A stretch of DNA of 47,769 bases, from positions 1-47,769 of the IMG/VR virus record IMGVR_UViG_3300031552_000008. The stretch is one strand, 5' to 3'. The notes under the pieces were generated by a model, which saw only the letters and a program-made list of their open reading frames with translations, was not told the origin of the DNA and did no database searches. The stretch comes from a virus. A program made the position numbers and the translations under genes. Below, one piece after another: positions 33,262 to 46,781 of this stretch; position 1 is the stretch's first letter; each line of letters starts with the position of its first letter.

Positions 33262-35919
33262 TCATTCGGGATTGTACTTTTTTGTCGTTCCCCAATTCTC
33301 CCCCCCGACTTTCATATCCACCACCAACGGAACTTTCATCTTTCCCCCATCCGCGCTTTCCATTATCCTCTTTTGTTCCTTCAGCACTTCTTTGTAGGAT
33401 CTCTTGTCCTGTTCCGATACTAGATCGTCATGGATCTGGATCAGGGGCACTGTTCTCCTTTTCTTTATCCTTCTCCAGTACACATAGAGCGGTTGAAGGT
33501 TCGCCATTGCCCTCTTCATTACTCCTGCCGCCCCTGACTGTATCGGCGCATTCCCCGCCTGTCTTAATCCTCTTTCTCTTTTCCATTTACTCTTTGTCTT
33601 TGCCCAGGGTACCCACCGAATCCTTCCCCACATATCTACCACTTTGCCGTGTTGCGCTGCATAGTTCCGATTGTTGTCCATGTAGGTTTTTACTCCGGGG
33701 TAGACACTGAACCAAGTATCAATAAGTTCTTGGCATCGATCCACTGGCCAATCTTCCTCATTCGCTCCCCCAACTACCAATTCCCTCTGTAGCCCATGAG
33801 CGGAAATGTCATTCAGGACACCAAAACCAACGCGTTTTGCCGGATATCGATGTTTCATAGAATCCAATCTCGATTCCGGAATCCCGAACATCTCGGAGGC
33901 GGTTTTGGAGTGAATATCCTCACCGCGATGGAAGATGGAACACATACGGCGGTCACCGGATTCGGAGGCGGTAATTCTTAGTTCTACTTGGGAGTAGTCA
34001 GCACAGGAAATAACACAACCATCAGCCGGAATAAACCCTTCCCTTACCCTACGTCCCTCAACGGTTCGAACGGGAATGGCCATCAAGGGGGGATCTTTCA
34101 TGGAAAGTCGTCCGGTTGCGGTACGGGTAACACGAACCGTTGCCCGAATCCGTCCGTCTTCATCTATCATACGGGGCAACTTTTCTACATATGATGTCTT
34201 CAGTTTGCTAAACGCTCTGTATTCTCTTATCCACTTCACCACGGGATGTTTGTCCTCAATTCGGGACAGAACGGCATCCTGCGTCATAGTGGTTGATTTT
34301 CCCTTTGCCATACGAGGATCAACAAATTCGTCCAATCCCAAATCCCCGTAAAGTAGTTCCGATACCTGAAGGGCCGAATCCGGATTAATAGTTTTTCCTG
34401 TGATCCCCGTAATTATAGCTGCGACCTCATTCAATTTCAGGTCAAATACCCCCCTTAGCTCTTCGAACTTGGCTGGATCTACCCTTATTCCAAACCTCAT
34501 CATATCCGCCACCATGGGCATTACCCTCATATCAGTCATGAAGACATCCCACATCCCCTCCGCTATGATACGGTCGCGGAGATACGGCCAGATTTGGTGC
34601 GTGCAATTCGAATCGTCACAGGCGTAGCGGAGAGTAACCTCTGGCGGAGCATCGGAGAGATCTCCGTCCCAGAGTCTACCAATATTGTGTTCAATGAGGG
34701 TGATGTCAGATCTGCCTTTATCTTTTCTAATCTTTTCCCACCGTTGGAAAGGATCAACGTCCTTGGCTGCAACATCCCGGATAATATTGCTCACCAGCCT
34801 ACTTATATTCTGCGGTTTCCTTACATGGGCTTCCCCCTTTTTCCATTCCAGTACTTCTTCCGGATCTGGCCACTCGTACTCCAGTAGCTCATTTAGGTAG
34901 GTTAGCGCTTTCTTGAACCTGTATGGTCTCACCACCTCCGTGTACTCCCCCATCTCTGCCCCGATTATCCTCCATGCCAAATCCTTGAGACCCTGTGGCT
35001 CGGATTGCAGAAGGTAGGCGGCGACCATACTGTCCCGCAGTTTCTCGGTTGGTATTTCCACTCCCATTTGGTACAGAACCGGAAGATCGTAGGCAGCGTT
35101 GTGGATAATAACCTCATCACACTGATCGGAGTTAACCCAGGAGTTCAATTGTTCCAGGTTGTTGCTGTCGTTGGCGTGAATTAGCAACGCGGTGCCAGCC
35201 TCATAGGTATTAGTGGTGCAGAAGGGCCGTCCCTCCGCCCATTCCGTATCGATCGCTATACTACGGGGAGTGTGGGATAGGCTATACTTTCCGCCATGAG
35301 TCAGATTCAGTAGGGGGTCCCAATATCGTCCCTCAACCGGACGAATGGAGGAAAAGCTAATAGGAGGCAGGAGGCGATCTAGGACAGGGCGAATGGTGGA
35401 AAATCCGTAAACCACTTTCACCATATCATCCATATTGCGAAGACCCCAAGACGGGTGAAAGATGGGAATGACCGTTCCCCAATCCGTTTTGAATGGAATC
35501 CCGTTTACCCTTTCCATTGTAACTTCTTCACCAAGAAAGAATCGGGTGGAGAATCGACCCAGAGCTATGATCACCTCTGGCTCTATTTCATCCAACTCTT
35601 GCAACAGAACATACCGGCAAGCATCTATTTGACATTGTGTTGGATTTGCATCATCGGGAGGATGACACTTTAGCATATTGGTCCAGTATACCATGGAGGT
35701 AGGATTTACGCGACTGATTAATGCTAGGTGCCTTGCCTCCGTACCCGCTGCCCCTACCCAGGGACGCCCCTCCTTATCCTCATTGAAACCGGGTGCCTCC
35801 CCCACAACCATCACTCTCGCTCTCTCTGCTCCTCTTCCCCACACTATCCTGGACCTTGTTTCCGATAGTTCGCACCTCTTGCAATTTGCATCCCCCATCA
35901 CTCGCACGATATCCACCAT
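33262..35919 (-). CDS. Uracil-DNA glycosylase/DNA polymerase I fusion
   Basis: The 885-residue protein starts at ATG 35919 behind GGAGGAGG. Residues 1 to about 180 are a family 4-type uracil-DNA glycosylase: CxxC (13, 16), GEAPGFNEDKEGRPWVGAAG, and later Cys residues completing an iron-sulphur site. Then comes a 3'-5' exonuclease with D224-x-E226, NAAYD (D278) and YACDD (about 432-436), so proofreading looks intact. The polymerase has motif A DYSQVELR (D641), motif B K695-R-V-G-F699-G-V-L-N703-D, and motif C IHDD (830-832). In motif B the template-stacking Tyr (Taq 671) is Asn703, and in motif C the usual Glu is Asp. It is the probable replicative polymerase and would have to use Z if the DNA is modified. 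The start was chosen because upstream codons make an untypical Pro/Gly tail. Confidence 0.93.
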   Translation of the reverse strand: MVDIVRVMGDANCKRCELSETRSRIVWGRGAERARVMVVGEAPGFNEDKEGRPWVGAAGTEARHLALISRVNPTSMVYWTNMLKCHPPDDANPTQCQIDACRYVLLQELDEIEPEVIIALGRFSTRFFLGEEVTMERVNGIPFKTDWGTVIPIFHPSWGLRNMDDMVKVVYGFSTIRPVLDRLLPPISFSSIRPVEGRYWDPLLNLTHGGKYSLSHTPRSIAIDTEWAEGRPFCTTNTYEAGTALLIHANDSNNLEQLNSWVNSDQCDEVIIHNAAYDLPVLYQMGVEIPTEKLRDSMVAAYLLQSEPQGLKDLAWRIIGAEMGEYTEVVRPYRFKKALTYLNELLEYEWPDPEEVLEWKKGEAHVRKPQNISRLVSNIIRDVAAKDVDPFQRWEKIRKDKGRSDITLIEHNIGRLWDGDLSDAPPEVTLRYACDDSNCTHQIWPYLRDRIIAEGMWDVFMTDMRVMPMVADMMRFGIRVDPAKFEELRGVFDLKLNEVAAIITGITGKTINPDSALQVSELLYGDLGLDEFVDPRMAKGKSTTMTQDAVLSRIEDKHPVVKWIREYRAFSKLKTSYVEKLPRMIDEDGRIRATVRVTRTATGRLSMKDPPLMAIPVRTVEGRRVREGFIPADGCVISCADYSQVELRITASESGDRRMCSIFHRGEDIHSKTASEMFGIPESRLDSMKHRYPAKRVGFGVLNDISAHGLQRELVVGGANEEDWPVDRCQELIDTWFSVYPGVKTYMDNNRNYAAQHGKVVDMWGRIRWVPWAKTKSKWKRERGLRQAGNAPIQSGAAGVMKRAMANLQPLYVYWRRIKKRRTVPLIQIHDDLVSEQDKRSYKEVLKEQKRIMESADGGKMKVPLVVDMKVGGENWGTTKKYNPE

Positions 35920-36181
35920 AACCCCTCCTCCAGGCATTTAATCTTTCTGCTGCAAACTTGGCCAACAATTTGAGTACCGGAATCAGGACGGAGGCAATTT
36001 TCTCTCCTTTGTCCACCGTCCTGTGTTCCTGGTGCGATCCTATCCTGTTCATTTCCACATCAAAGACTGTGATCTCTGCTACAATATGAAAACGGTCAAA
36101 GTAGGCAGGATTGGAACCGTCCACCTGTCTGATATTTTGGGCCACATTGATAGAATGTTTGGGCCAATCGGAAAGGCTCAC
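35780..36181 (-). CDS. Unknown protein, 133 aa, overlapping the polymerase
   Basis: The frame starts at GTG 36181, which overlaps the TGA of the upstream gene (GTGA), and is well organised for its first 90 residues (strands and a helix: YFDRFHIVAEITVFDVEMNRI; KIASVLIPVLKLLAKFAAERL). The last 140 bases run through the start of the polymerase in another frame and read as Arg/Gly-rich. Either the gene really overlaps, or it was once shorter or is frameshifted. No family recognised. Confidence 0.5.
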   Translation of the reverse strand: MSLSDWPKHSINVAQNIRQVDGSNPAYFDRFHIVAEITVFDVEMNRIGSHQEHRTVDKGEKIASVLIPVLKLLAKFAAERLNAWRRGYGGYRASDGGCKLQEVRTIGNKVQDSVGKRSRESESDGCGGGTRFQ

Positions 36182-36591
36182 AGTCTCACCTCCTCCCACA
36201 CTATTGGTACCCCCGCTGTGTCCGCCATTTCTATTTCCCCCTTCGATCCCGTGCTCTCGTCCAGCCATTTGTTCTTCACCACCGCTGCCAAGTCACACTT
36301 ACAGAGAAGGACAAGGTGACCGGCCATTATACGGTGATCATCCAGGTCCCCATCAAAGGCTCCCCCATTCAGGTGCGGACAGATTACCGCCCATCCATCC
36401 TCCCAATACTTCCTTGCCAACTTCCTTGCCATCAGAATGTTCAGTTCCTGCTGAATTTTGTTCTTGTGTCTGAGTGCCCCAATTATGAAAACGGTAGGTT
36501 GTCTGCCGCTTCGTTTCCCCTCCAGCAATATGTGCCGAATCCCGTCTTTGTCCTTGTCACTTACCCAATCTAACATCGCTCCTTGTGTCAT
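36178..36591 (-). CDS. Nucleoside deoxyribosyltransferase-like (DUF4406-like) protein
   Basis: ATG 36591 follows AAGGAG at good spacing; ATG 36600 is too close. The 137-residue protein has the pattern TVFIIGALR, then LARKYWEDGWAVICPHLNGG, then KNKWLDESTGSKGEIEMADTAGVPIVW. This is the layout of the nucleoside 2-deoxyribosyltransferase superfold, with the 'S.G...E...A....iP' site around the catalytic Glu. It could act in nucleotide metabolism, but no substrate can be read from the sequence. It is coupled to 35780-36181. Confidence 0.75.
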   Translation of the reverse strand: MTQGAMLDWVSDKDKDGIRHILLEGKRSGRQPTVFIIGALRHKNKIQQELNILMARKLARKYWEDGWAVICPHLNGGAFDGDLDDHRIMAGHLVLLCKCDLAAVVKNKWLDESTGSKGEIEMADTAGVPIVWEEVRL

Positions 36592-36605
36592 TGTATTCAT
36601 CTCCT

Positions 36606-37343
36606 TTACCCCCTTGTCCTTAATTGTCGGTAAATTCCCTCCGCTATTGTTTGTCCCACTCCCTCCACTTCCATTATATCAGTCACCGATGCCGCCATCA
36701 ATTCCATCATGGAACCAAAATGGTGGGCGATATCCAGAGCCTTCCTCCCTCCAATACCATCCATCCCAACCAGCATCCGAGCCAGGGTCTTTGGTCTTTT
36801 GAATCCTGGTGCTGCAGGAACCGGATTAACCATCATCGTTTCCGCCGTCCTATGTTTCTTTTTGTTATACCACCTGTGTATGTGGTCTATCCATGATGCA
36901 GTATTGAGGAGATTCGGGGTGAACAGAGTAGGAACGCCAAACAGTTCTCGGACCGAAATTAGGAAGGAGTGTACTTCTTTGCTTCCATACACTCTCTTCC
37001 CATATCGCAACGGCCTGAATCCCTTTCCTTGCCAGATCTCCAGTTCCCCCTTCTTGTTCGTTTGCCATAACCCCTCTATTACAAGGTAGGAACGATCGTA
37101 TTCTTCCCCCATACCCGGCAATTGGTGCGCCACCAGCCTTCCGCTTTCCATGGAGGATATCAGATCCCGTATCCGCTTCCTCTCGATGCCGACCATCACA
37201 TCGCGGGGGTCGGATTCGCCTGGGAGCGTGGTGTGGCCCACTACGACGGCGTCTCCGTAGTCTAGATCGCATACGGAATGGGGGGTGAGCAAGTGCGGAT
37301 GGAGTTCAATGCTACCGACGCGACGATCGAGTAGGAGAGTCAT
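36606..37343 (-). CDS. ERCC4-type nuclease with helix-hairpin-helix
   Basis: The 245-residue protein contains the ERCC4/XPF nuclease signature GIERKRIRD (residues 52-60) after acidic residues near 29, and ends with two helix-hairpin-helix units (LVGMDGIGGRKALDIAHHFG; SVTDIMEVEGVGQTIAEGIY). This is the build of XPF/Mus81-type structure-specific nucleases, which cut branched DNA. Its neighbours suggest a recombination or resolution role. ATG 37343 overlaps the upstream stop (ATGA). Confidence 0.88.
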   Translation of the reverse strand: MTLLLDRRVGSIELHPHLLTPHSVCDLDYGDAVVVGHTTLPGESDPRDVMVGIERKRIRDLISSMESGRLVAHQLPGMGEEYDRSYLVIEGLWQTNKKGELEIWQGKGFRPLRYGKRVYGSKEVHSFLISVRELFGVPTLFTPNLLNTASWIDHIHRWYNKKKHRTAETMMVNPVPAAPGFKRPKTLARMLVGMDGIGGRKALDIAHHFGSMMELMAASVTDIMEVEGVGQTIAEGIYRQLRTRG

Positions 37344-37720
37344 TTGGATTTCCTTCTCGGTTTTGATTGCCCAAGTTCACACTTGTCGCAGGGCCTCTTT
37401 CTGTAACCGCTGTTGGGGGCTGGACCTGCAGAGAAGTGATCACCAGCATCATAGTAATATGAAACATAACCGGTATCCTCACACCTGTCACAGTGGTATT
37501 TCGGCTTCGTTTCCGCTTTTAGTACCGCCATCTTCTCGATTGCCCCCTCCATTACTACTTTCTCTACCAAATTCACGAGATTGATGAGCTTTTCCCCGTA
37601 ATAGGTGGGTTTATCGGGTCGGACGAATCGTACAAGGTCGCCCTCCCTTTTCATAATCAAAGGACCAAAGATGTCGAATCCCGCCTCTCCTATGATCTCC
37701 ATCGCCTTTTTTCTGTCCAT
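37340..37720 (-). CDS. Protein with zinc-binding Cys pairs, 126 aa
   Basis: ATG 37720 follows GGGGAGGGAATC; an upstream frame extension has no site. The N-terminal half is a charged alpha/beta region (KKAMEIIGEAGFDIFGPLIMKREGDLVRF). The C-terminal part has CDRCEDTGYVSYYYDAGDH, then a second CDKCELG, so four cysteines in CxxC pairs as in DnaJ-type or replication zinc fingers. It precedes the ERCC4 nuclease and is coupled to it, so it may be an accessory DNA-binding protein. Confidence 0.7.
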   Translation of the reverse strand: MDRKKAMEIIGEAGFDIFGPLIMKREGDLVRFVRPDKPTYYGEKLINLVNLVEKVVMEGAIEKMAVLKAETKPKYHCDRCEDTGYVSYYYDAGDHFSAGPAPNSGYRKRPCDKCELGQSKPRRKSK

Positions 37721-37737
37721 GATTCCCTCCCCATTTT

Positions 37738-38049
37738 CTAATCGTCGTAGATTTTGACATCTGGTCTTTTGCACCTACCAACCCAAAGGTAAGGATTCAT
37801 TAATTGAACACGATTAATGAACCAGATCTTTCCTCCTCCAGGAAGAAGTAATCGTCTTTCGTTGTGGTGATACTCCCACCCGTTCGTGGTAGATATGATA
37901 GGCAGGAAAAAGTGTTTGATATAGAAATCGAGTATCTGGTGACTCCCGCCTATATAAAGAACCCATTTTCCCTCGCTTGCAAGTTTTAGTGCCTCCAAAA
38001 CCTTCCTAAATGTCTTGCCTGACCGCCTATAGTTGTCGCAAAGACCCAT
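37738..38049 (-). CDS. Small P-loop-like protein, 103 aa
   Basis: ATG 38049 follows GGGGAGGA. Residues 8-13 read RRSGKT, like the end of a Walker A loop, followed by a helix (FRKVLEALKLASEGK) and strand (WVLYIGG) as in the first lobe of helicases or packaging ATPases. No DEAD box or second domain is present. It could be a shortened ATPase or a DNA-binding stub. Function unknown. Confidence 0.6.
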   Translation of the reverse strand: MGLCDNYRRSGKTFRKVLEALKLASEGKWVLYIGGSHQILDFYIKHFFLPIISTTNGWEYHHNERRLLLPGGGKIWFINRVQLMNPYLWVGRCKRPDVKIYDD

Positions 38050-38060
38050 GACTTCCTCCC

Positions 38061-38834
38061 CTATTTCCAGTCTTCTGGATCGTTTCCCATCACCATGCTG
38101 GCAATCCAGGGAAAGCTGATCATCCCCTCCCCCGTTTCCCTATCCGTCTCCAGTACTTCCCCTTCCAGATTTGGATCCTGTGTGCATTTGTCTATCTTGC
38201 AGTAGAAGTTGTCCTTGTCTTTGGTTAGTTCCACCGCCACCTGGACGAGGTATCCCATTTCCTTAAACCCGGCTCGTATCCGCTTTCCGGTAGGGATCGC
38301 CATCGCATCCTTCTTCTTTGGATTTGTATTTATGTACTCGTCCTTCCGTTTGTGAATCAGGATCAGATTCTTGTTGTTGCGCTTGGCGTGGCGAATTAGG
38401 GTACGGAACTCCGCATTAACAGGGCCATAATGGTGAGGTTTCACGTTGTTGATTTTTCCGAATCTCGCCAGACGTACCATTTCCCAGAACTCGGTTCCGG
38501 TATCGAAGACTATGGAGCGAACGACGGAATCAGGGGCGGCAAGACAGGCCTTATACGCTTTTATCATCGCCTCCGTTTTCTTCTCCGCTTCATCGTCCCC
38601 ACCCTCAAGCAGATAGCCGACTTGGTAATGTCGAAATTCACCCTTCTTGAAATTGAACTTTTCCACAATCGGGTCGACGTTATCATCTATATCGAAGAAG
38701 GCAATGGGACGGGGGGCGGTAAGGGAAAGATGTGTCTTGCCACAGCCCTCATCCGCATCAACAGTCATAATAATACGTGGAGTAGCAACAGGAACATCGT
38801 CACCAAAGCCGAGTTTGGTTAGTTGATCAGCCAT
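38061..38834 (-). CDS. Sak4-like RecA-fold ATPase
   Basis: Start is ATG 38834; a TTG three bases upstream gives the alternative. Residues about 27-34 are the Walker A DADEGCGKT, and a Walker B strand SIVFDTGTEFW lies near residue 110. The pattern AAA_24/RecA-like, small size (257 aa) and position next to an exonuclease and an SSB-like gene fit Sak4-type phage recombinases, which anneal or pair strands with help of SSB. It has no zinc finger or N-terminal extension. Confidence 0.8.
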   Translation of the reverse strand: MADQLTKLGFGDDVPVATPRIIMTVDADEGCGKTHLSLTAPRPIAFFDIDDNVDPIVEKFNFKKGEFRHYQVGYLLEGGDDEAEKKTEAMIKAYKACLAAPDSVVRSIVFDTGTEFWEMVRLARFGKINNVKPHHYGPVNAEFRTLIRHAKRNNKNLILIHKRKDEYINTNPKKKDAMAIPTGKRIRAGFKEMGYLVQVAVELTKDKDNFYCKIDKCTQDPNLEGEVLETDRETGEGMISFPWIASMVMGNDPEDWK

Positions 38835-38844
38835 CAATACCCCC

Positions 38845-38913
38845 TTATCTGTTTCTTATGGTGACGGCAAATATAATCACCAGTACGATTAGCCATAGTG
38901 TTTCCTTGTCCAT
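38845..38913 (-). CDS. 22-aa membrane micropeptide
   Basis: The ATG overlaps the stop of the nuclease gene (TAATG, 38915-38911), with GGAGG just before. The product MDKETLWLIVLVIIFAVTIR plus two residues is almost only one hydrophobic helix with a charged start and end. Good ribosome binding and the coupled start support translation. Function unknown. Confidence 0.5.
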   Translation of the reverse strand: MDKETLWLIVLVIIFAVTIRNR

Positions 38914-39473
38914 TATTCCTCCAACATCCCTTCGTTAATGGCAAACTGCCGAATATAGGCCCAGTTCTCGTCTATTTCCTTCTGTGTAAACTCCAGTCGA
39001 TAGGTGAAGTACTGAGGACCGCTCCCCTTATAATCACCAACAACGTATATGATGCGAACGACGGTGACCCGAGTGCCCAGCATTTTGCAGTAGGACTTGA
39101 ATTGGGTGATGTAGTACCAGTTGGACTCGATCGGATTGTTGCTGGACTTCCAGGTAAGCTTGTATTCCTCATTGACGAAGTCTACCTCTCCCCAGGGATC
39201 GTCTCCAACCCCGTCCGGGGAACCAACAATCCCGTCCACAATTATCTCATTTGGCCGGATCCCAAGCTTATCCTTGTATGCCATCTCCAGCGCCCGTTCC
39301 CAGATAAAACCACAATCAGGGGTAAGGTTCATATTCCACTTTACCCCTGTGTAGTCAGTCTGGTCCATGCGCTTGATAATGTCAGTGAGGTGGAGGACTC
39401 CGGTGCCAACGGTCCTGTTCGTTTCGTCAGGAAACCGGCTATATTCTTCTTCTATTAAATCTACTCTCGCCAT
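38913..39473 (-). CDS. RecB/Cas4-like PD-(D/E)XK exonuclease
   Basis: The 186-residue protein has GFIWERALE (E59), then D80, acidic residues near 87-98, E103-Y-K105 in a strand, and QFKSY (residues 124-128), matching the RecB/Cas4 nuclease series E, D, ExK, QxxxY. This is the phage recombination or end-processing exonuclease type. It precedes the Sak4-like ATPase in one operon, so the two probably act as a recombination pair. ATG 39473 follows GGAGG; its start overlaps the 40-aa gene 39439-39561. Confidence 0.85.
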   Translation of the reverse strand: MARVDLIEEEYSRFPDETNRTVGTGVLHLTDIIKRMDQTDYTGVKWNMNLTPDCGFIWERALEMAYKDKLGIRPNEIIVDGIVGSPDGVGDDPWGEVDFVNEEYKLTWKSSNNPIESNWYYITQFKSYCKMLGTRVTVVRIIYVVGDYKGSGPQYFTYRLEFTQKEIDENWAYIRQFAINEGMLEE

Positions 39474-39561
39474 ACCACCTCCTAACTTTAATGTAACGGG
39501 TATAGAGGAAAAGGATCAAGGCTGCAAGGAGAATAAGGAGGGTAACTCGGATTCGGTACAT
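39439..39561 (-). CDS. 40-aa single-membrane-span protein
   Basis: The frame runs from ATG 39561 to TAG 39439 with GGAG upstream. It has a basic start (MYRIRV), a hydrophobic helix (TLLILLAALILFLYT), and a basic end (KVRRW...RRR), so the topology is N-in or N-out with a positive flank on both sides. It overlaps the nuclease gene start by 35 bases. Function unknown; similar tiny proteins occur between replication genes here (38845-38913). Confidence 0.5.
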   Translation of the reverse strand: MYRIRVTLLILLAALILFLYTRYIKVRRWYGESRFNRRRI

Positions 39562-39563
39562 GA

Positions 39564-39935
39564 TCAGCTCCACTTTCCATCTTTCTTTATGGATACTATC
39601 CCCACATCACCCTCTTTTCCGACGTCAATACCAACAGTACTGCTGGGAGAATCCGGGATCGGAACTTGGTCCGAGGTGACATAGGACCCAGGATTGTTCA
39701 GGTCCACGATGTGCCCACACGGCCTCCACCCTTCCCCGCTCTTGTTCTTCACCGCCCCCATACAACAGAAGACCGGATGCTGGACGAACTCCTCCTTGCC
39801 GGTCGGGCTAATCAATGCCGACATCTTCCTCATACGAACTGCAGGCTGGAAGAATACGGAGCCACAGTCAGGGCACAATAGGTCAGGGATGGAAGAGATA
39901 TCGATCCCCCTTCTCATCTTTTTATTTTTTCCCAT
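39564..39935 (-). CDS. Zinc-ribbon-like protein, 123 aa
   Basis: ATG 39935 follows AAAGGAGG and lies inside the end of the MazG-family gene. Residues about 20-25 hold CPDCG; later CC and a C-G-H (residues about 57-75: FCCMGAVKNKSGEGWRPCGH) could complete a zinc site. The C-terminal 40 residues are flexible (PIPDSPSSTVGIDVG) and end in KKDGKWS. No named family. Confidence 0.65.
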   Translation of the reverse strand: MGKNKKMRRGIDISSIPDLLCPDCGSVFFQPAVRMRKMSALISPTGKEEFVQHPVFCCMGAVKNKSGEGWRPCGHIVDLNNPGSYVTSDQVPIPDSPSSTVGIDVGKEGDVGIVSIKKDGKWS

Positions 39936-40449
39936 CTTTTTTCCTCCTTTTCCTCTCCTTTAGTATTTTCTTCCTTTTTTCCTTTACCTTTACCATGTTC
40001 ATTGCCAAAATTTGGCGAATGTCGGGGTAACCGGCTTCGGCAGCGGTGCGGGTCAGATAAAACTGCACATCACCCAATTCCTCAGCCAGAGCGCCTGTAT
40101 CCATTCCCAGGGCCGCTGTATCGATCGCGTTCAGTGCCTCAACCACCGCAGCATTATCCCTAAGCTCCTTTTTCATCGCATTGGAAACCTCACCCGCCTC
40201 CCCAATAAGACCGAGGATACAATAGAGGAGACCAACAAGGCCCCGGTTCTTGCCGGGGTAGATGGCTGCCTCGTCCACAGCACGGGAGTAATTGAGGGTG
40301 GAGGCGCGAGCGGTGATATAGGAGGCACAGTCAAGCAGGACGGACTCCACCACACACTGATTACATACCATACCCGGAGAACAACTGCACTCTCCTGGCA
40401 TTACATTCAGCGCCAGTTCTATCCTTTTTAGCATTTCCGCTTCTTTCAT
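39922..40449 (-). CDS. MazG-family nucleotide pyrophosphohydrolase (MazZ-like)
   Basis: ATG 40449 follows GGAAAGGA and overlaps the upstream stop (ATGA). The 175-residue protein has the MazG core: LGLIGEAGEVSNAMKKEL with E84 and E87 as an ExxE motif, and LAEELGDVQFYLTRTA with E124 and D127 as ExxD, the metal site of all-alpha NTP pyrophosphohydrolases. In Z phages the MazG-type MazZ cleaves dGTP to dGMP, the substrate of PurZ. Here the two are encoded in the same phage, on opposite strands. Substrate is inferred. The N-terminal 60 residues include four Cys (CSC, C, C), unusual for MazG. Confidence 0.82.
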   Translation of the reverse strand: MKEAEMLKRIELALNVMPGECSCSPGMVCNQCVVESVLLDCASYITARASTLNYSRAVDEAAIYPGKNRGLVGLLYCILGLIGEAGEVSNAMKKELRDNAAVVEALNAIDTAALGMDTGALAEELGDVQFYLTRTAAEAGYPDIRQILAMNMVKVKEKRKKILKERKRRKKDGKK

Positions 40450-40763
40450 TTTCTTTTCCTTTCCTTTATTGGCCACGGCTCCAATTTCTCCTCCCCCCAC
40501 CTCTTTCCGCACACAGGGCATTTTTTGCTACTCACCACCACCAATTCTCTCCCACATCCCTCGCACCTTCTCTTTGCATCTGGTGGTATTTGCTTTACCC
40601 AATCCCGATCCTGACAATAATGTATGCAGTAAGGGTGAATACCGATTCGGGTATAGAACCAGCACAACTCCACGTTAACCCTTTCGTCGCCTCGGGCTTG
40701 GCAAACGGTATAGCCAAGGTTTCGGATACCGTCATTCCCGTGATAGACAATTTCTCTTGCCAT
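40446..40763 (-). CDS. Zinc-ribbon-like protein, 105 aa
   Basis: The C-terminal part has CEGCGRELVVVSSKKCPVCGKRWG, a clear two-CxxC zinc ribbon (about residues 68-85). The N-terminal part has further Cys residues (VCQARG, CWFYTR, YCIHYCQD). ATG 40763 is preceded by AAGGAGGG-type sequence. Coupled to the MazG-family gene by ATGA. Such ribbons often accompany nucleotide or DNA enzymes, but no function is shown. Confidence 0.7.
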   Translation of the reverse strand: MAREIVYHGNDGIRNLGYTVCQARGDERVNVELCWFYTRIGIHPYCIHYCQDRDWVKQIPPDAKRRCEGCGRELVVVSSKKCPVCGKRWGEEKLEPWPIKERKRK

Positions 40764-40793
40764 CGCCTGTCCCCCTCCCCCCTCCTTAGATTT

Positions 40794-40825
40794 GGTCCCC
40801 CAGGTTCTCTCCTCCCTGGGGGACC
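40794..40825 (-). terminator. 11-bp stem hairpin between operon parts
   Basis: GGTCCCCCAGG (40794-40804) pairs perfectly with CCTGGGGGACC (40815-40825) around a 10-base loop. It lies between the SSB-like gene and the zinc-ribbon gene on the minus strand. No T-run follows on that strand, so termination, if any, would be partial. Confidence 0.6.
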
Positions 40826-40858
40826 ACCCTTACCACCCTAACCACTCACCCGCCTGGA

Positions 40859-41692
40859 TCAAATGGTCAGTTTGCCATCCGCATAATTCCATGGTTTATC
40901 ATCGGACAGCCACGCGTCCTTGCCAATCAGATTGGAGATCTTGGCCCGGTCCTTGTTCCCCTTCAGTGTCTTAAAAGCGGCACCGATAAGAGCGGCCTTG
41001 GTCATGGACCCGTCATTTTCGGCAAGAAGCGTCATCACGGTTTCGGCTGCAGCGTCGTCGATATCTCCTCCACCTTCACCGCCACCCGCAGGTTTGGTTT
41101 TGGTGTCAGCCTTGGTTTCCTTCGACTTCCCTGCCACCTTTCCCTTTCCCTTACCTCCTTTCTTGCCCGTTTCCTCTTCATCCCAGGGCATTTTGAGGAT
41201 TGCAGTGATGACCGGCACTTCCCTGTTTTTCTTTTCCTTCTTGCCGGTCTTCCGGTCCTTCATATTGGTTTCGACTTCGACCCGATCCACATGGGCGATC
41301 AACCCTTCCAGATCTCCCGCCTCCCCCGTCCATTTGTCCTGGGGAAATCCCTGGAGTGAAGCGGAGGAGATCAGCATACCGAAGTTGGAGCTGGAGTTGA
41401 CACCCTTGGCCTTCCCGACGTTGATCAGGTATTGGCCTTCATCCGCCTCTTCTTCCCCATCCTCGCTGGGTTTCAGATCCTTGTGCCCCACCGACCACAT
41501 TTGGGTCACCTCCTCCTCCGTTTCCTGGTCAATCAGGTCGGCGGAGAAGACAGTGACTTCCTCATCGGATGCCCCGTTGTAATCGGTGATTTCGAATTTG
41601 CAGTTCTTGAACATCACATCGGCGTCATCAATCAGCCCGCCACCCTCGGTCAAGTTTTCTGCTCCCCATGCCACTTTACCTTTTTCTGCCAT
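40859..41692 (-). CDS. SSB-like (OB-fold) protein, 277 aa
   Basis: ATG 41692 follows AAAGGAG with the leader AACCAACCAACAACC. Residues 1-170 are strand-rich with the opening GAENLTEGGGLIDDADVMFKNCKFEITDYNG; residues about 170-220 are a Lys/Gly-rich linker (GKKGGKGKGKVAGKSKETK); the C-terminus is a helical/acidic domain (AAAETVMTLLAENDGSMTKAALIGAAFKTLKG). Phages with a Sak4-like ATPase often encode an SSB, and the composition and operon place suit this. The call is by layout, not by a firm motif. Confidence 0.6.
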   Translation of the reverse strand: MAEKGKVAWGAENLTEGGGLIDDADVMFKNCKFEITDYNGASDEEVTVFSADLIDQETEEEVTQMWSVGHKDLKPSEDGEEEADEGQYLINVGKAKGVNSSSNFGMLISSASLQGFPQDKWTGEAGDLEGLIAHVDRVEVETNMKDRKTGKKEKKNREVPVITAILKMPWDEEETGKKGGKGKGKVAGKSKETKADTKTKPAGGGEGGGDIDDAAAETVMTLLAENDGSMTKAALIGAAFKTLKGNKDRAKISNLIGKDAWLSDDKPWNYADGKLTI

Positions 41693-41726
41693 GTTGCTTT
41701 CTCCTTTGCTACTGGTTGTTGGTTGG

Positions 41727-41782
41727 TTGAGGGTCAGTACTCTACGTTTCCCCTAAGGGTACTCCTGATTCCCGGCCCTCAA
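41727..41782 (-). promoter_or_regulatory. Weak long inverted repeat before the SSB-like gene
   Basis: TTGAGGG (41727-41733) and CCCTCAA (41776-41782) are inverted copies that bracket the leader of the gene at 40859-41692 and overlap the stop of the helicase. The interior has imperfect pairing. It could modulate SSB-like expression; evidence is weak. Confidence 0.35.
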
Positions 41783-43401
41783 ACTGGTCTCGGTTTCGGC
41801 ACATCTTCTTTCATTGGCGTTGATCTCTTTTTCACCCTTACCGTCCGGAAGCTATCCTGAAACCACTTTGGCGCAAACGATTTGTACTTCCTGATAAACC
41901 ATTCTATATTGTTGTCGATGATAAAATTCTCACACCAATCCTCTTTATTCCTCACCCCCCTTCCACACGTCTGAATCAGTCTTTGCATTGCGATATATGG
42001 TGCATAATCCCTATCCATCTGCATCCGTCTTTTTATTATAGGGTCACTGGTATCCGGATAGGCGATCTTGCCAATAATTTGGTACCTTATCTCATCATCA
42101 GGGAAGTCGTATCCTGTCGTCATTACAGGGGAAACAAAAATAGCGGGGGGAGAGGATGACTTGAACCTTTCCACCGTCTCAATTGTGTTGCGGGAATTGT
42201 GTCCTATCATGAATTGGGTATAGTCACTACTTTCCATTATCAGCTTTTGTCTCTTGTAGGATACAGAATGGATGATCCCTTTCCTATCCAATCTATCTTC
42301 CAGAATCTGATCTATCCTCGCCAACCACTTCAGCATTTCCATATCGGTTGTTCGGTAATTTAGTCCTATGGTGTGGATGTAGTTCAGGATTCGGTTCTCC
42401 AATGGAAAGGGGTGATCCACTTCCACCACATCCACATCTTTCTGGTCTATTCCCAGAAGTCCTATGGTTTTTGGTGTAACGGTAGCGGATGTGAGGATCA
42501 CTTTTTCTATTCCCTTAAACAATGTAGATTCGGTGTAGTGGTAGGGCCAAACAACAGAGGAGGTGATTCGATTACCGGATTTATACACTATCATGTTTTC
42601 CGGATCTTCTTCTATCCCGTGATTGATAAAGCTGGTAGATTCCCATAATCGTTGTAGAAAGTGGGCAAGGTCCAGTGTTTCCTTCCCGTAGTCCCCTTCC
42701 TCCTTTATTCTCCAGCTTACATCTTCGTATTGGGAAGATACGGTTTTGTGCCAGTGCCTGATCCACTCCTTTATTCCCGACTTTGACTTCGGAAAGGATT
42801 CCACAATTTCATCCTTTATCCCCTTCCCCTCTCTACTTCCTATTATTTCCTTGGTCAGGAATGAGGATAGGATCTCTGGCAATTCATGTGCTTCATCACA
42901 GATTAGAGTGGAGAACTGGAAGGTGTAATCGTCTCCGTACCCCCAATCCCCTCGGTTCATCCAATAGGCATAGTTGGTGGAGATTATGGGGGCTGCCATC
43001 GCTTTCTTTACCTGATCATAGTATAGGCAACCGTCCTTGACGAAGGGACATCTCATTCCCCAATTGCATGGCCCCTTCCCGCAGGTCGAATACCCCCCCA
43101 ACATTTTGCACGGGTAGTTGTCCTTACCCCTTAGGTCCACTACCACCCCTTCGTGCTCATTTTTTAGTTGGTCCTGCAATGCTCGGGTAGAGGTGAGGAT
43201 TACCGCCCTGGATCCCCCATTGATTAGAGCGGAGACAATATACATGAGGGATTTGCCAAAGCCAGTAGGGCAAACGGGCATAATTAATCGATGTTCTGAA
43301 TCCACCACATGCTGAACCACCATATCCTGGTTCTGTCTCCAGGAATCGAACCGGGAATCAACACCGAATGAATAGGGTGGGGGTAATAGGTCCGCCATCA
43401 T
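41779..43401 (-). CDS. DinG/XPD-type DNA helicase with iron-sulphur cysteines
   Basis: The 540-residue protein has Walker A PTGFGKS (residues 45-51), a five-Cys stretch (C98, C107, C112, C118, C125) where the XPD/DinG [4Fe-4S] domain sits, and the DEAH box at 169-172. Motifs V and VI (TTGYDFPDDE, QTCGRGVRNKED) end the second lobe. It is a 5'-3' helicase by family and probably serves replication or recombination. The tandem ATG ATG start follows GGAGGA; the second ATG (43398) has better spacing. Confidence 0.88.
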   Translation of the reverse strand: MMADLLPPPYSFGVDSRFDSWRQNQDMVVQHVVDSEHRLIMPVCPTGFGKSLMYIVSALINGGSRAVILTSTRALQDQLKNEHEGVVVDLRGKDNYPCKMLGGYSTCGKGPCNWGMRCPFVKDGCLYYDQVKKAMAAPIISTNYAYWMNRGDWGYGDDYTFQFSTLICDEAHELPEILSSFLTKEIIGSREGKGIKDEIVESFPKSKSGIKEWIRHWHKTVSSQYEDVSWRIKEEGDYGKETLDLAHFLQRLWESTSFINHGIEEDPENMIVYKSGNRITSSVVWPYHYTESTLFKGIEKVILTSATVTPKTIGLLGIDQKDVDVVEVDHPFPLENRILNYIHTIGLNYRTTDMEMLKWLARIDQILEDRLDRKGIIHSVSYKRQKLIMESSDYTQFMIGHNSRNTIETVERFKSSSPPAIFVSPVMTTGYDFPDDEIRYQIIGKIAYPDTSDPIIKRRMQMDRDYAPYIAMQRLIQTCGRGVRNKEDWCENFIIDNNIEWFIRKYKSFAPKWFQDSFRTVRVKKRSTPMKEDVPKPRPV

Positions 43402-43408
43402 TCCTCCT

Positions 43409-43945
43409 TTATACCAGATCCGGAAATCTTTTCTTGAATTCTTTTCTGTATCCCGTCTTCCACGGTCCCTCCGGCATCTTCTCTATCAATTCCTTCACTC
43501 TATCCACCATCTGCTTCGCTACTTCCATGCTTCCCTCTCTCCTGTGATACCTTACTCTTTCCTCCAATTGTCCTATGGATAGCATGAATTGTTGGTGGTT
43601 TTCGTCGTCCCTTGCGATTTCGGAAATAGCATCAATTACGAAGATGTTGTTAACTCCGATGTAACCCAAGTCCGTAAGCCAGCGCAAGTGCCGAATTAGT
43701 GCATGGCGATAGAGGTCGGAATCTGTACGGTACGGGAATTGCTTTGTCTGTATTGCCTCCCCTACCATTGCCCTCATTTGCTTCAGTCCCCGAAATTGGA
43801 ACCTTGTCGAATGCCCCTGGGAATCGGAGGTTGGAACGTGGAAGTCCTCTGGATCTATTTTCCTTATATCATCGTCAGGAATAAGATCACCGAATTGTAT
43901 TACTTTCGCGCCCTTGTTGGTGCCCCCCACTTTGCTCTTTTCCAT
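43409..43945 (-). CDS. Unknown protein, 178 aa
   Basis: ATG 43945 follows an AAAGG site. The first 60 residues are polar; from residue 70 it is helical (RGLKQMRAMVGEAIQTKQFPY; LYRHALIRHLRWLTDLGY; EISEIARDDENHQQFMLSIGQLEERVRYHRREGSMEVAKQMVDRVKELI). No known motif. It directly precedes the helicase and may assist it. Confidence 0.7.
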   Translation of the reverse strand: MEKSKVGGTNKGAKVIQFGDLIPDDDIRKIDPEDFHVPTSDSQGHSTRFQFRGLKQMRAMVGEAIQTKQFPYRTDSDLYRHALIRHLRWLTDLGYIGVNNIFVIDAISEIARDDENHQQFMLSIGQLEERVRYHRREGSMEVAKQMVDRVKELIEKMPEGPWKTGYRKEFKKRFPDLV

Positions 43946-45674: not shown

Positions 45675-46781
45675 ATGAAAAGAGGAAAATGGAATGTAGT
45701 AATTGGAGGGCAGGCGGGATCAGAGTCGAAAGGGAAGTGCGCCTGCTATCTGGTGCACAAGTACGGGGAGCTGGAGGATGGGATAGAGGCCGTTTCCATG
45801 ACTGCTTCCCCCAATGCCGGTCACACTTATGTCTCCGACTCTGGCAAGAAAATGGTTAGCTATCACCTCCCCATTTCCGGTGTGGTCAATCTGTCCCTGA
45901 ATCGGCGTGCCATTATCGTCCTTGGTCCTGCCTCTCTCATCAACCCCACAATTCTCGCTAAGGAGATCCATGATTTGGGGGTGGACCCGGACCGAGTCTT
46001 CCTTGACCCTCGTGCCTCTATCATTACCACCGAGTGCCTGGAGTCCGAATGCCTTTCCTCCCTCTCCGATATCGGTTCCACGCTGCAGGGGGTAGGGGAG
46101 GCAAGGATGAGGAAGATGATGAGGGGGCACAAAGGGAGAACGGTTCAGGCAAAGGATTCCTCAGCCATTCACCTTCTTGGTCTTCGCCTTCGTCACACAG
46201 ATGAGGTTCTCTATAACCTCCTCCACACCGAACATACCATACTGCACGAAATGACGCAGGGATTCGACCTCGACCTGGAGCACGGCATTTCCCCTCTCCA
46301 CTGTACATCCAAGATGATAAACACGGCGATGGGTATGGCGGAGATGGGGGTTGCCCCGGCCTTCCTTGGTGATGTGTGGGGGGTGATCCGCCCGTATCCG
46401 ATCCGTGTTAGCAATCGGACGGGCTACTCGGGAGGGTACGAGGAAGCCGAGGAAATATCATGGGACACGATCGCGACTCGTGCGGGGGTGCCGGATGGGG
46501 TCAAGATTGCGGAAATAACGACCACAACCAAGCTGCCCAGGAGGGTGTTCGAGTTCTCGTGGGAAAGGTTCATGAAATTCGTGAGGGTGTGTGGGCCAAC
46601 GAGGCTGTGTCTGCAGTTCGGGAACTACCTGGACTGGGAGATCGCGGGGGAGAAGGAGGGTTTATTTTTGGCGTATCCAAAGGTGGGGAACTTCGTGTTG
46701 GAACTGGAAAAGAGGTCCGGTGTCCCGGTTTCCCTAGTGGGCACCGGACCCAAAAATTGCGAGATGATAGAACCTTCCTGA
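45675..46781 (+). CDS. purZ: PurZ: (deoxy)adenylosuccinate-synthetase-like enzyme for 2-aminoadenine
   Basis: The 368-residue protein is a PurA homologue. The nucleotide loop reads VVIGGQAGSESKGK (residues 8-21); PurA has WGDEGKGK, so the catalytic Asp is Ser16, the substitution that marks phage PurZ. NAGHT (47-51) with His50 and the GSTLQGVGEARMRK stretch (134-147) are conserved family motifs. PurZ joins aspartate to dGMP; host PurB then yields dZMP. It is shorter than host PurA (about 430 residues). The ribosome binding site is AAAGGGGAAC. It sits after a basic small gene in an operon with its own promoter. Confidence 0.92.
   Translation: MKRGKWNVVIGGQAGSESKGKCACYLVHKYGELEDGIEAVSMTASPNAGHTYVSDSGKKMVSYHLPISGVVNLSLNRRAIIVLGPASLINPTILAKEIHDLGVDPDRVFLDPRASIITTECLESECLSSLSDIGSTLQGVGEARMRKMMRGHKGRTVQAKDSSAIHLLGLRLRHTDEVLYNLLHTEHTILHEMTQGFDLDLEHGISPLHCTSKMINTAMGMAEMGVAPAFLGDVWGVIRPYPIRVSNRTGYSGGYEEAEEISWDTIATRAGVPDGVKIAEITTTTKLPRRVFEFSWERFMKFVRVCGPTRLCLQFGNYLDWEIAGEKEGLFLAYPKVGNFVLELEKRSGVPVSLVGTGPKNCEMIEPS

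Follow-up and report, generated by a model that had tools for sequence, protein, structure and literature searches.

The window analysed here is the whole of a DNA stretch of 47,769 nucleotides from an uncultured phage (IMG/VR record IMGVR_UViG_3300031552_000008), and its minus strand carries the gene in question, which encodes a family A DNA polymerase (PolA). The open reading frame, 891 amino acids when counted from its first ATG, holds three domains that by their Pfam matches make it a predicted fusion of a uracil-DNA glycosylase (UDG) with a proofreading PolA. The initial annotation was silent on the UDG part and started at an ATG six codons further downstream, so that its N703 is N709 in the present numbering. 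A gene for a PurZ protein lies on the plus strand. The features on which the argument depends are the following.

33262..35937 (-): UDG, 3'-5' exonuclease and family A DNA polymerase in one chain, candidate DpoZ (PF03167, PF01612, PF00476; phrog_17)
35431..35838 (-): UDG domain, residues 34-169 (PF03167, E = 3.9e-22; sequence similar to 1ui0, TM0511)
34951..35262 (-): 3'-5' exonuclease domain, residues 226-329 (PF01612, E = 1e-9)
33289..34467 (-): polymerase domain, residues 491-883 (PF00476, E = 1.5e-94)
34192..34194 (-): codon of S582, equivalent to E. coli T639; the most purZ-linked column inside the UDG-PolA clade
33985..33987 (-): codon of V651, equivalent to E. coli I709, beside the steric-gate Glu; the second most purZ-linked column
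33814..33861 (-): O-helix, residues 693-708, ending immediately before N709 (DSSP on the AlphaFold2 model)
33811..33813 (-): codon of N709, equivalent to Taq Y671, E. coli Y766, Bst Y714 and phiVC8 F459
33808..33810 (-): codon of D710, equivalent to Taq G672 and E. coli G767
33424..33426 (-): codon of D838; by alignment column counts this residue of motif C (HDD) is not specific to Z
45675..46781 (+): PurZ (2-aminoadenylosuccinate synthetase-like), GQAGSESKGK with the invariant Ser16 (phrog_1211, E = 1.2e-49)

Judged from its sequence, the protein is a family A polymerase, since it has the PF00476 domain, motifs A, B and C and the catalytic Asp pair (D647, D837). Apart from the changes considered below, nothing is missing from the polymerase active site, with DYSQVELR as motif A and with R697, K701 and HD836-837 present. 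The exonuclease residues D230, E232 and D284 are present together with Y438 and D442, which lie beyond the 226-329 domain, and all five columns are invariant among 25 homologues. The UDG part has GEAPG at 46, HPS at 161 and CKRC at 19-22. Among solved structures, the polymerase is nearest in sequence to Klenow, Taq and Bst, and the UDG domain to 1ui0 and TM0511. An AlphaFold2 model of the 891-residue chain, with 25 homologues in the input, has a mean pLDDT of 90.4, and its exonuclease-polymerase part aligns with Klenow over 570 residues at 2.7 Å (VIA-align Z 41), which is the fold of the Bst, Taq and E. coli Pol I enzymes.

The PurZ of the window resembles PurA, but its GS[ET]xKG motif puts Ser where PurA has the catalytic Asp, a diagnostic change that is invariant in 20 aligned PurZ sequences from known and new phages. 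It is therefore assigned as PurZ and predicted to act on dGMP, and we infer that the DNA of the phage contains the base Z, 2-aminoadenine, which pairs with T by three hydrogen bonds.

The initial annotation claimed that the template-stacking Tyr of the O-helix is missing from motif B and that the following Gly has become Asp, and both observations hold. Motif B is RYPAKRVGFGVLND, also given as HRYPAKRVGFGVLNDISAHGL, and in the Klenow alignment (1kln, E. coli numbering) N709 corresponds to Y766, D710 to G767, G704 to N761, F705 to F762 and K701 to K758. When the numbering of the vibriophage phiVC8 DpoZ is recomputed from its coding sequence, F459 falls in the same column as N709. The same motif B occurs in a 60% identical polymerase (L002) and the same Asn in another with 43% identity by tblastn (L003), and N709 is for this reason no local sequencing oddity. 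The Tyr714 of Bst lies stacked on the base pair just formed and has been proposed as a regulatory checkpoint that judges the geometry of the pair (PMC6231770, PMC8113479), and both known DpoZ clades are reported to share a Tyr-to-Phe change at the same position (PMC8599892).

To put the residue in relation to purZ, polymerases were collected from viral records found by polymerase similarity, blind to column 709, from records found by PurZ alone, and from a sample selected by motif A; a few named phages completed the collection. A scan conditioned on the Asn motif served as exploration only, and those of its purZ-positive records that are in the survey were found again by the similarity search blind to column 709. 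The PurZ relatives were recovered with an alignment query, which gave 516 in viral contigs, while a plain single-protein PurZ query gave none. The presence of purZ was scored on whole records, and purZ-negative records were required to be at least 25 kb long. A weak adenylosuccinate synthetase match in one record (G023) was dropped, as it sits within the open reading frame of a Sak4-like ATPase. The 79 purZ-positive and 69 purZ-negative polymerases were reduced by dereplication at 80% to 125 (58 and 67, respectively), and 393 alignment columns were tested. The columns of motif A (646-655) rank high in the full set but, with the exception of 651, were set aside because one set of controls had been picked by this very motif.

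Among the 393 columns, column 709 has the strongest link to purZ. Tyr is found there in 11 of the 58 purZ-positive and 52 of the 67 purZ-negative polymerases, with a Fisher p-value of 3.4e-11 that, like all Fisher p-values given here, is blind to phylogeny. The purZ-positive enzymes have N 18, F 16, Y 11, T 10 and one each of A, C and G, and the purZ-negative enzymes have Y 52, F 10, N 4 and M 1. When path-disjoint pairs are taken from the 125-row tree, which is a quick tree with several long branches, column 709 again ranks first (10.3 concordant and 0.6 discordant in 17 pairs). It also remains first among the columns tested when the controls selected by motif A are removed (2.8e-7), and column 651 is second with and without them. 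The replacements (Asn, Phe, Thr and rarer residues) are spread over several lineages. Of the 78 polymerases in the motif-A sample, 14 have Phe and two Asn at this position, and among the 50 records of the sample that were checked for purZ, the only positive one is one of the two with Asn. Phe in place of Tyr is by itself no mark of Z. Loss of Tyr at 709 is thus statistically linked to purZ, although the link is not absolute.

The window polymerase belongs to a UDG-PolA clade of 45 rows (98% SH-aLRT). In this clade the best column is 582, where Thr is found in 0/23 purZ-positive and 17/20 purZ-negative members, and column 709 is second, with Tyr in 1/23 and 17/22. The link between column 709 and purZ exists also outside the clade (p = 1.2e-5). 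Two other features do not mark Z. The initial annotation was right that motif C (IQIHDDLVS) reads HDD, but HDD is rejected as a mark of Z, as Asp838 occurs in 17/57 purZ-positive and 11/67 purZ-negative polymerases and phiVC8 has Ser there. The UDG fusion is rejected likewise, since it is found also in purZ-negative phages, two of them with annotated genes for hydroxymethyl-pyrimidine synthesis.

A natural contrast is provided within one 100%-supported group, whose eight purZ-positive members all have N709 and D838, whereas their sister G036 has Y709, T582 and E838. No purZ match is found in the 25-kb record of G036, nor at the syntenic site, where the orthologues of the genes that border purZ in five relatives stand 1.3 kb apart with nothing resembling purZ between them. 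G036 and the purZ-positive group differ at about 38% of positions over the polymerase domain, and 24 columns are fixed in the latter, so that the two do not amount to a single-mutation pair.

Two groups of DpoZ have been described, DpoZ-1 and DpoZ-2 (PMC12884076), and the window polymerase is outside both, since it groups with the UDG-PolA enzymes and apart from the phiVC8-like and the Ghobes/Bennie-like rows. It comes from a purZ phage, has intact exonuclease residues and is predicted to prefer dZTP over dATP, but where the described clades have Phe it has Asn709. It is thus a candidate DpoZ of a further lineage. The phiVC8 enzyme (PDB 7pbk; DpoZ-2, PurZ group) resembles it in coming from a purZ phage, in joining a proofreading domain to a family A polymerase and in having lost the O-helix Tyr; their aligned parts are only about 26% identical, and phiVC8 DpoZ lacks the UDG domain and has Phe rather than Asn, an O-helix insertion and L455, of which the window polymerase has neither of the last two. 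The Wayne/Ghobes-like DpoZ (DpoZ-1, PurZ0; Gordonia phage Ghobes, Arthrobacter phage Bennie) are PolA enzymes of purZ phages with AKRxNFSLIFG and Phe in the same column, but they are shorter, form a separate branch and have no Asn; Galactica, which is near them, keeps Tyr. Fusions with the same order of UDG-like N-terminus, exonuclease and PolA are found in SPO1 (gp31) and Yersinia phage P744, but these two, as well as Lebethron and the Manatee Spring phage, keep the O-helix Tyr. An adenylosuccinate synthetase was not found in P744, Lebethron or the Manatee Spring phage; P744 and the Manatee Spring phage have instead genes annotated for hydroxymethyl-pyrimidine synthesis. The Y714S variant of Bst, solved with a G:T mismatch (3hpo), carries an engineered change at the position, while the change in the window polymerase is natural and conserved. 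The open-licence literature searched gave no description of Z phages whose PolA is fused to UDG, or of Asn at the 709 position.

The authors of the phiVC8 structure noted the shared Tyr-to-Phe change and set it aside, and proposed that DpoZ prefers Z over A through backtracking into the exonuclease, which would be more frequent for weak A:T ends than for Z:T ends, without placing the determinant (PMC8599892). Because the Tyr stacks on the new pair, its removal is a plausible determinant, and this proposal joins the two published ideas with the association described above. When the Tyr that caps the new primer-terminal pair is replaced by Asn, or elsewhere by Phe, Thr or a rarer residue, the cap would be weakened, and retention of the primer end in the polymerase site would lean more on the hydrogen bonds of the pair itself. 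Ends with three bonds, Z:T and G:C, would then stay, while A:T ends with two bonds would fray, backtrack and be cut by the 3'-5' exonuclease. The intact exonuclease residues fit this proposal, as the backtracking model needs an exonuclease (PMC8599892). We give a probability of roughly one half to the reading that the gene encodes the replicative polymerase of a Z-DNA phage, a UDG-exonuclease-PolA fusion that belongs to neither described DpoZ group, in which loss of the Tyr acts by such fraying. More tentative is its extension to family A polymerases at large, in which convergent loss of the Tyr, independently to Phe, Asn and Thr and often accompanied by changes at T639 and I709 (E. coli numbering), would set the choice of Z over A and let the polymerase count the hydrogen bonds at the end of the primer. 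The survey adds further lineages, with Asn and Thr, to those linked to Z, together with a close relative that has Tyr and lacks purZ, and a ranking of columns with 709 in first place. The choice of Z over A thereby becomes testable at a named residue, which could guide the engineering of polymerases for Z-DNA.

Several observations weigh against the fraying reading. Five purZ-negative records of 40-56 kb lack the Tyr (N in G022, G052 and G056, M in G041, F in G025), purZ-negative L353 has Asn, and nine more purZ-negative polymerases have Phe. Conversely, Tyr is kept in 11 purZ-positive polymerases, including that of Streptomyces phage Galactica, and from this follows that its loss is not required in purZ-positive phages. 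Sign tests on supported branches yield only four to five pairs, with zero discordant in a typical pairing, and are too underpowered to reach significance; in a 48-row tree of the clade, column 709 is only fifth by pairs. Moreover, the specificity of DpoZ was judged in PMC8599892 not to be explained by any one mutation of the active site. The comparison with PolA of other purZ phages, which the initial annotation had proposed, places phiVC8 F459 in the column and finds Tyr absent from 47/58 purZ-positive enzymes. Its suggestion of an adaptation to Z is in part borne out, as PurZ is present and loss of the Tyr ranks first of 393 columns, but the exact Asn is not needed, other lineages having Phe or Thr, and some Z phages keep Tyr. 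The occurrence of the same residues in phage PolA without purZ, which it had named as counter-evidence, is seen at a low level (Asn 4/67, Phe 10/67) and so tells only weakly against it.

The main rival to the fraying mechanism is that constraint has been relaxed. With all pairs three-bonded the Tyr checkpoint would be unneeded and would drift, and Z would be selected in the nucleotide pool, for which the window has MazG-like and nucleoside 2-deoxyribosyltransferase-like (NDT-like) genes. The diversity of replacements at 709 (N, F, T, A, C, G) is what drift predicts, and the PrimPol of cyanophage S-2L is described as incorporating A and Z alike (PMC8065100). Yet Asn is fixed in long-diverged members of the window's group and Thr in another group, which looks like selection, and column 582 shows parallel changes; relaxed constraint is judged unlikely, though it comes closest among the rivals. 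The order of events might also have been the reverse, in that the UDG-PolA lineage lost its Tyr for other reasons and then hosted purZ more readily. The five purZ-negative records listed above form one well-supported group together with purZ-positive Thr lineages (possible reasons are a loss of purZ, incomplete records, another modification, or a loss of the Tyr that came first), and GFG in motif B, like most other features of the clade, is found in its purZ-negative members too. Such a lineage effect or pre-adaptation is distinctly improbable, however, when Tyr is present in 17/22 purZ-negative members of the clade, when G036, with Tyr and without purZ, is close to the Asn group, and when the link extends beyond the clade. 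It is very improbable, finally, that loss of the Tyr alters sugar selection or suits other modified bases and has no bearing on Z. The residue has been described as a steric gate for NTPs (PMC8599892), and some of the purZ-negative phages without Tyr may bear other modifications, but neither version predicts a linkage to purZ.

The surroundings of the polymerase and purZ genes include the following.

36178..36600 (-): NDT-like protein (DUF7768), candidate dNMP enzyme, beside the polymerase (PF24963, phrog_355)
36606..43401 (-): replication island with an ERCC4/HHH protein, a Sak4-like ATPase, two conserved proteins without family (38913-39473, 40859-41692) and a DEAD/Helicase_C_2 helicase
39922..40521 (-): MazG-like pyrophosphohydrolase (PF03819, phrog_229)
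43409..43945 (-): 178-residue protein without family match, adjoining the helicase and PurZ genes

The order helicase, 40859 gene, 38913 gene, Sak4, ERCC4, UDG-PolA is kept in purZ-positive and purZ-negative records. The purZ gene itself occupies three positions relative to this island (past the helicase, between the Sak4 and ERCC4 genes, or past the polymerase), which suggests repeated acquisition or relocation of purZ. The corresponding polymerases have Asn, Thr and Asn at 709. The NDT-like gene, between the polymerase and ERCC4 genes, is kept in three purZ-positive relatives (G001, G011, G035) and was not found in the purZ-negative records compared for the island. Its product may act in the Z pathway, in a role like that of DmtZ; compared with the open reading frames of the fetched purZ phages, those with PurZ0 included, it gave no sequence match that would identify it as DmtZ. 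The 178-residue protein is found in most purZ-positive relatives and also in purZ-negative G041 and G056, whose polymerases lack the Tyr, while G036 has only a short, remnant-like match. Among annotated phage PurZ proteins, the one nearest to that of the window, at about 36-38% identity, is from Bacillus phage vB_BpsS-140 (L005, bases 17071-55091). No PolA is found in this fetched part of its genome, and the phage may copy Z-DNA by another polymerase.

Two further observations concern related polymerases. A separate group of purZ-positive PolA enzymes (L262, L275, L286, L294) has NQT or NQA instead of NFG in motif B, that is, Gln at the Phe762 position, in addition to Thr at the Tyr position. 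Inteins (Intein_splicing, HNH_3, LAGLIDADG) are present in related UDG-PolA genes (L182:9275-14593, L175:9374-12772, L186:6698-10213), inserted directly before SQIE of motif A, and the 1773-residue product of L182 seems to hold more than one. The polymerases of L193, L177, L181 and L187 are enlarged too, that of L193 without a Pfam intein match. The PurZ of G021 (L110:556-1995 (-)) is split by an in-frame insert with similarity to Hint/intein-splicing domains below the Pfam cut-offs, so in this phage group both the Z synthetase and the polymerase may be targets of inteins.
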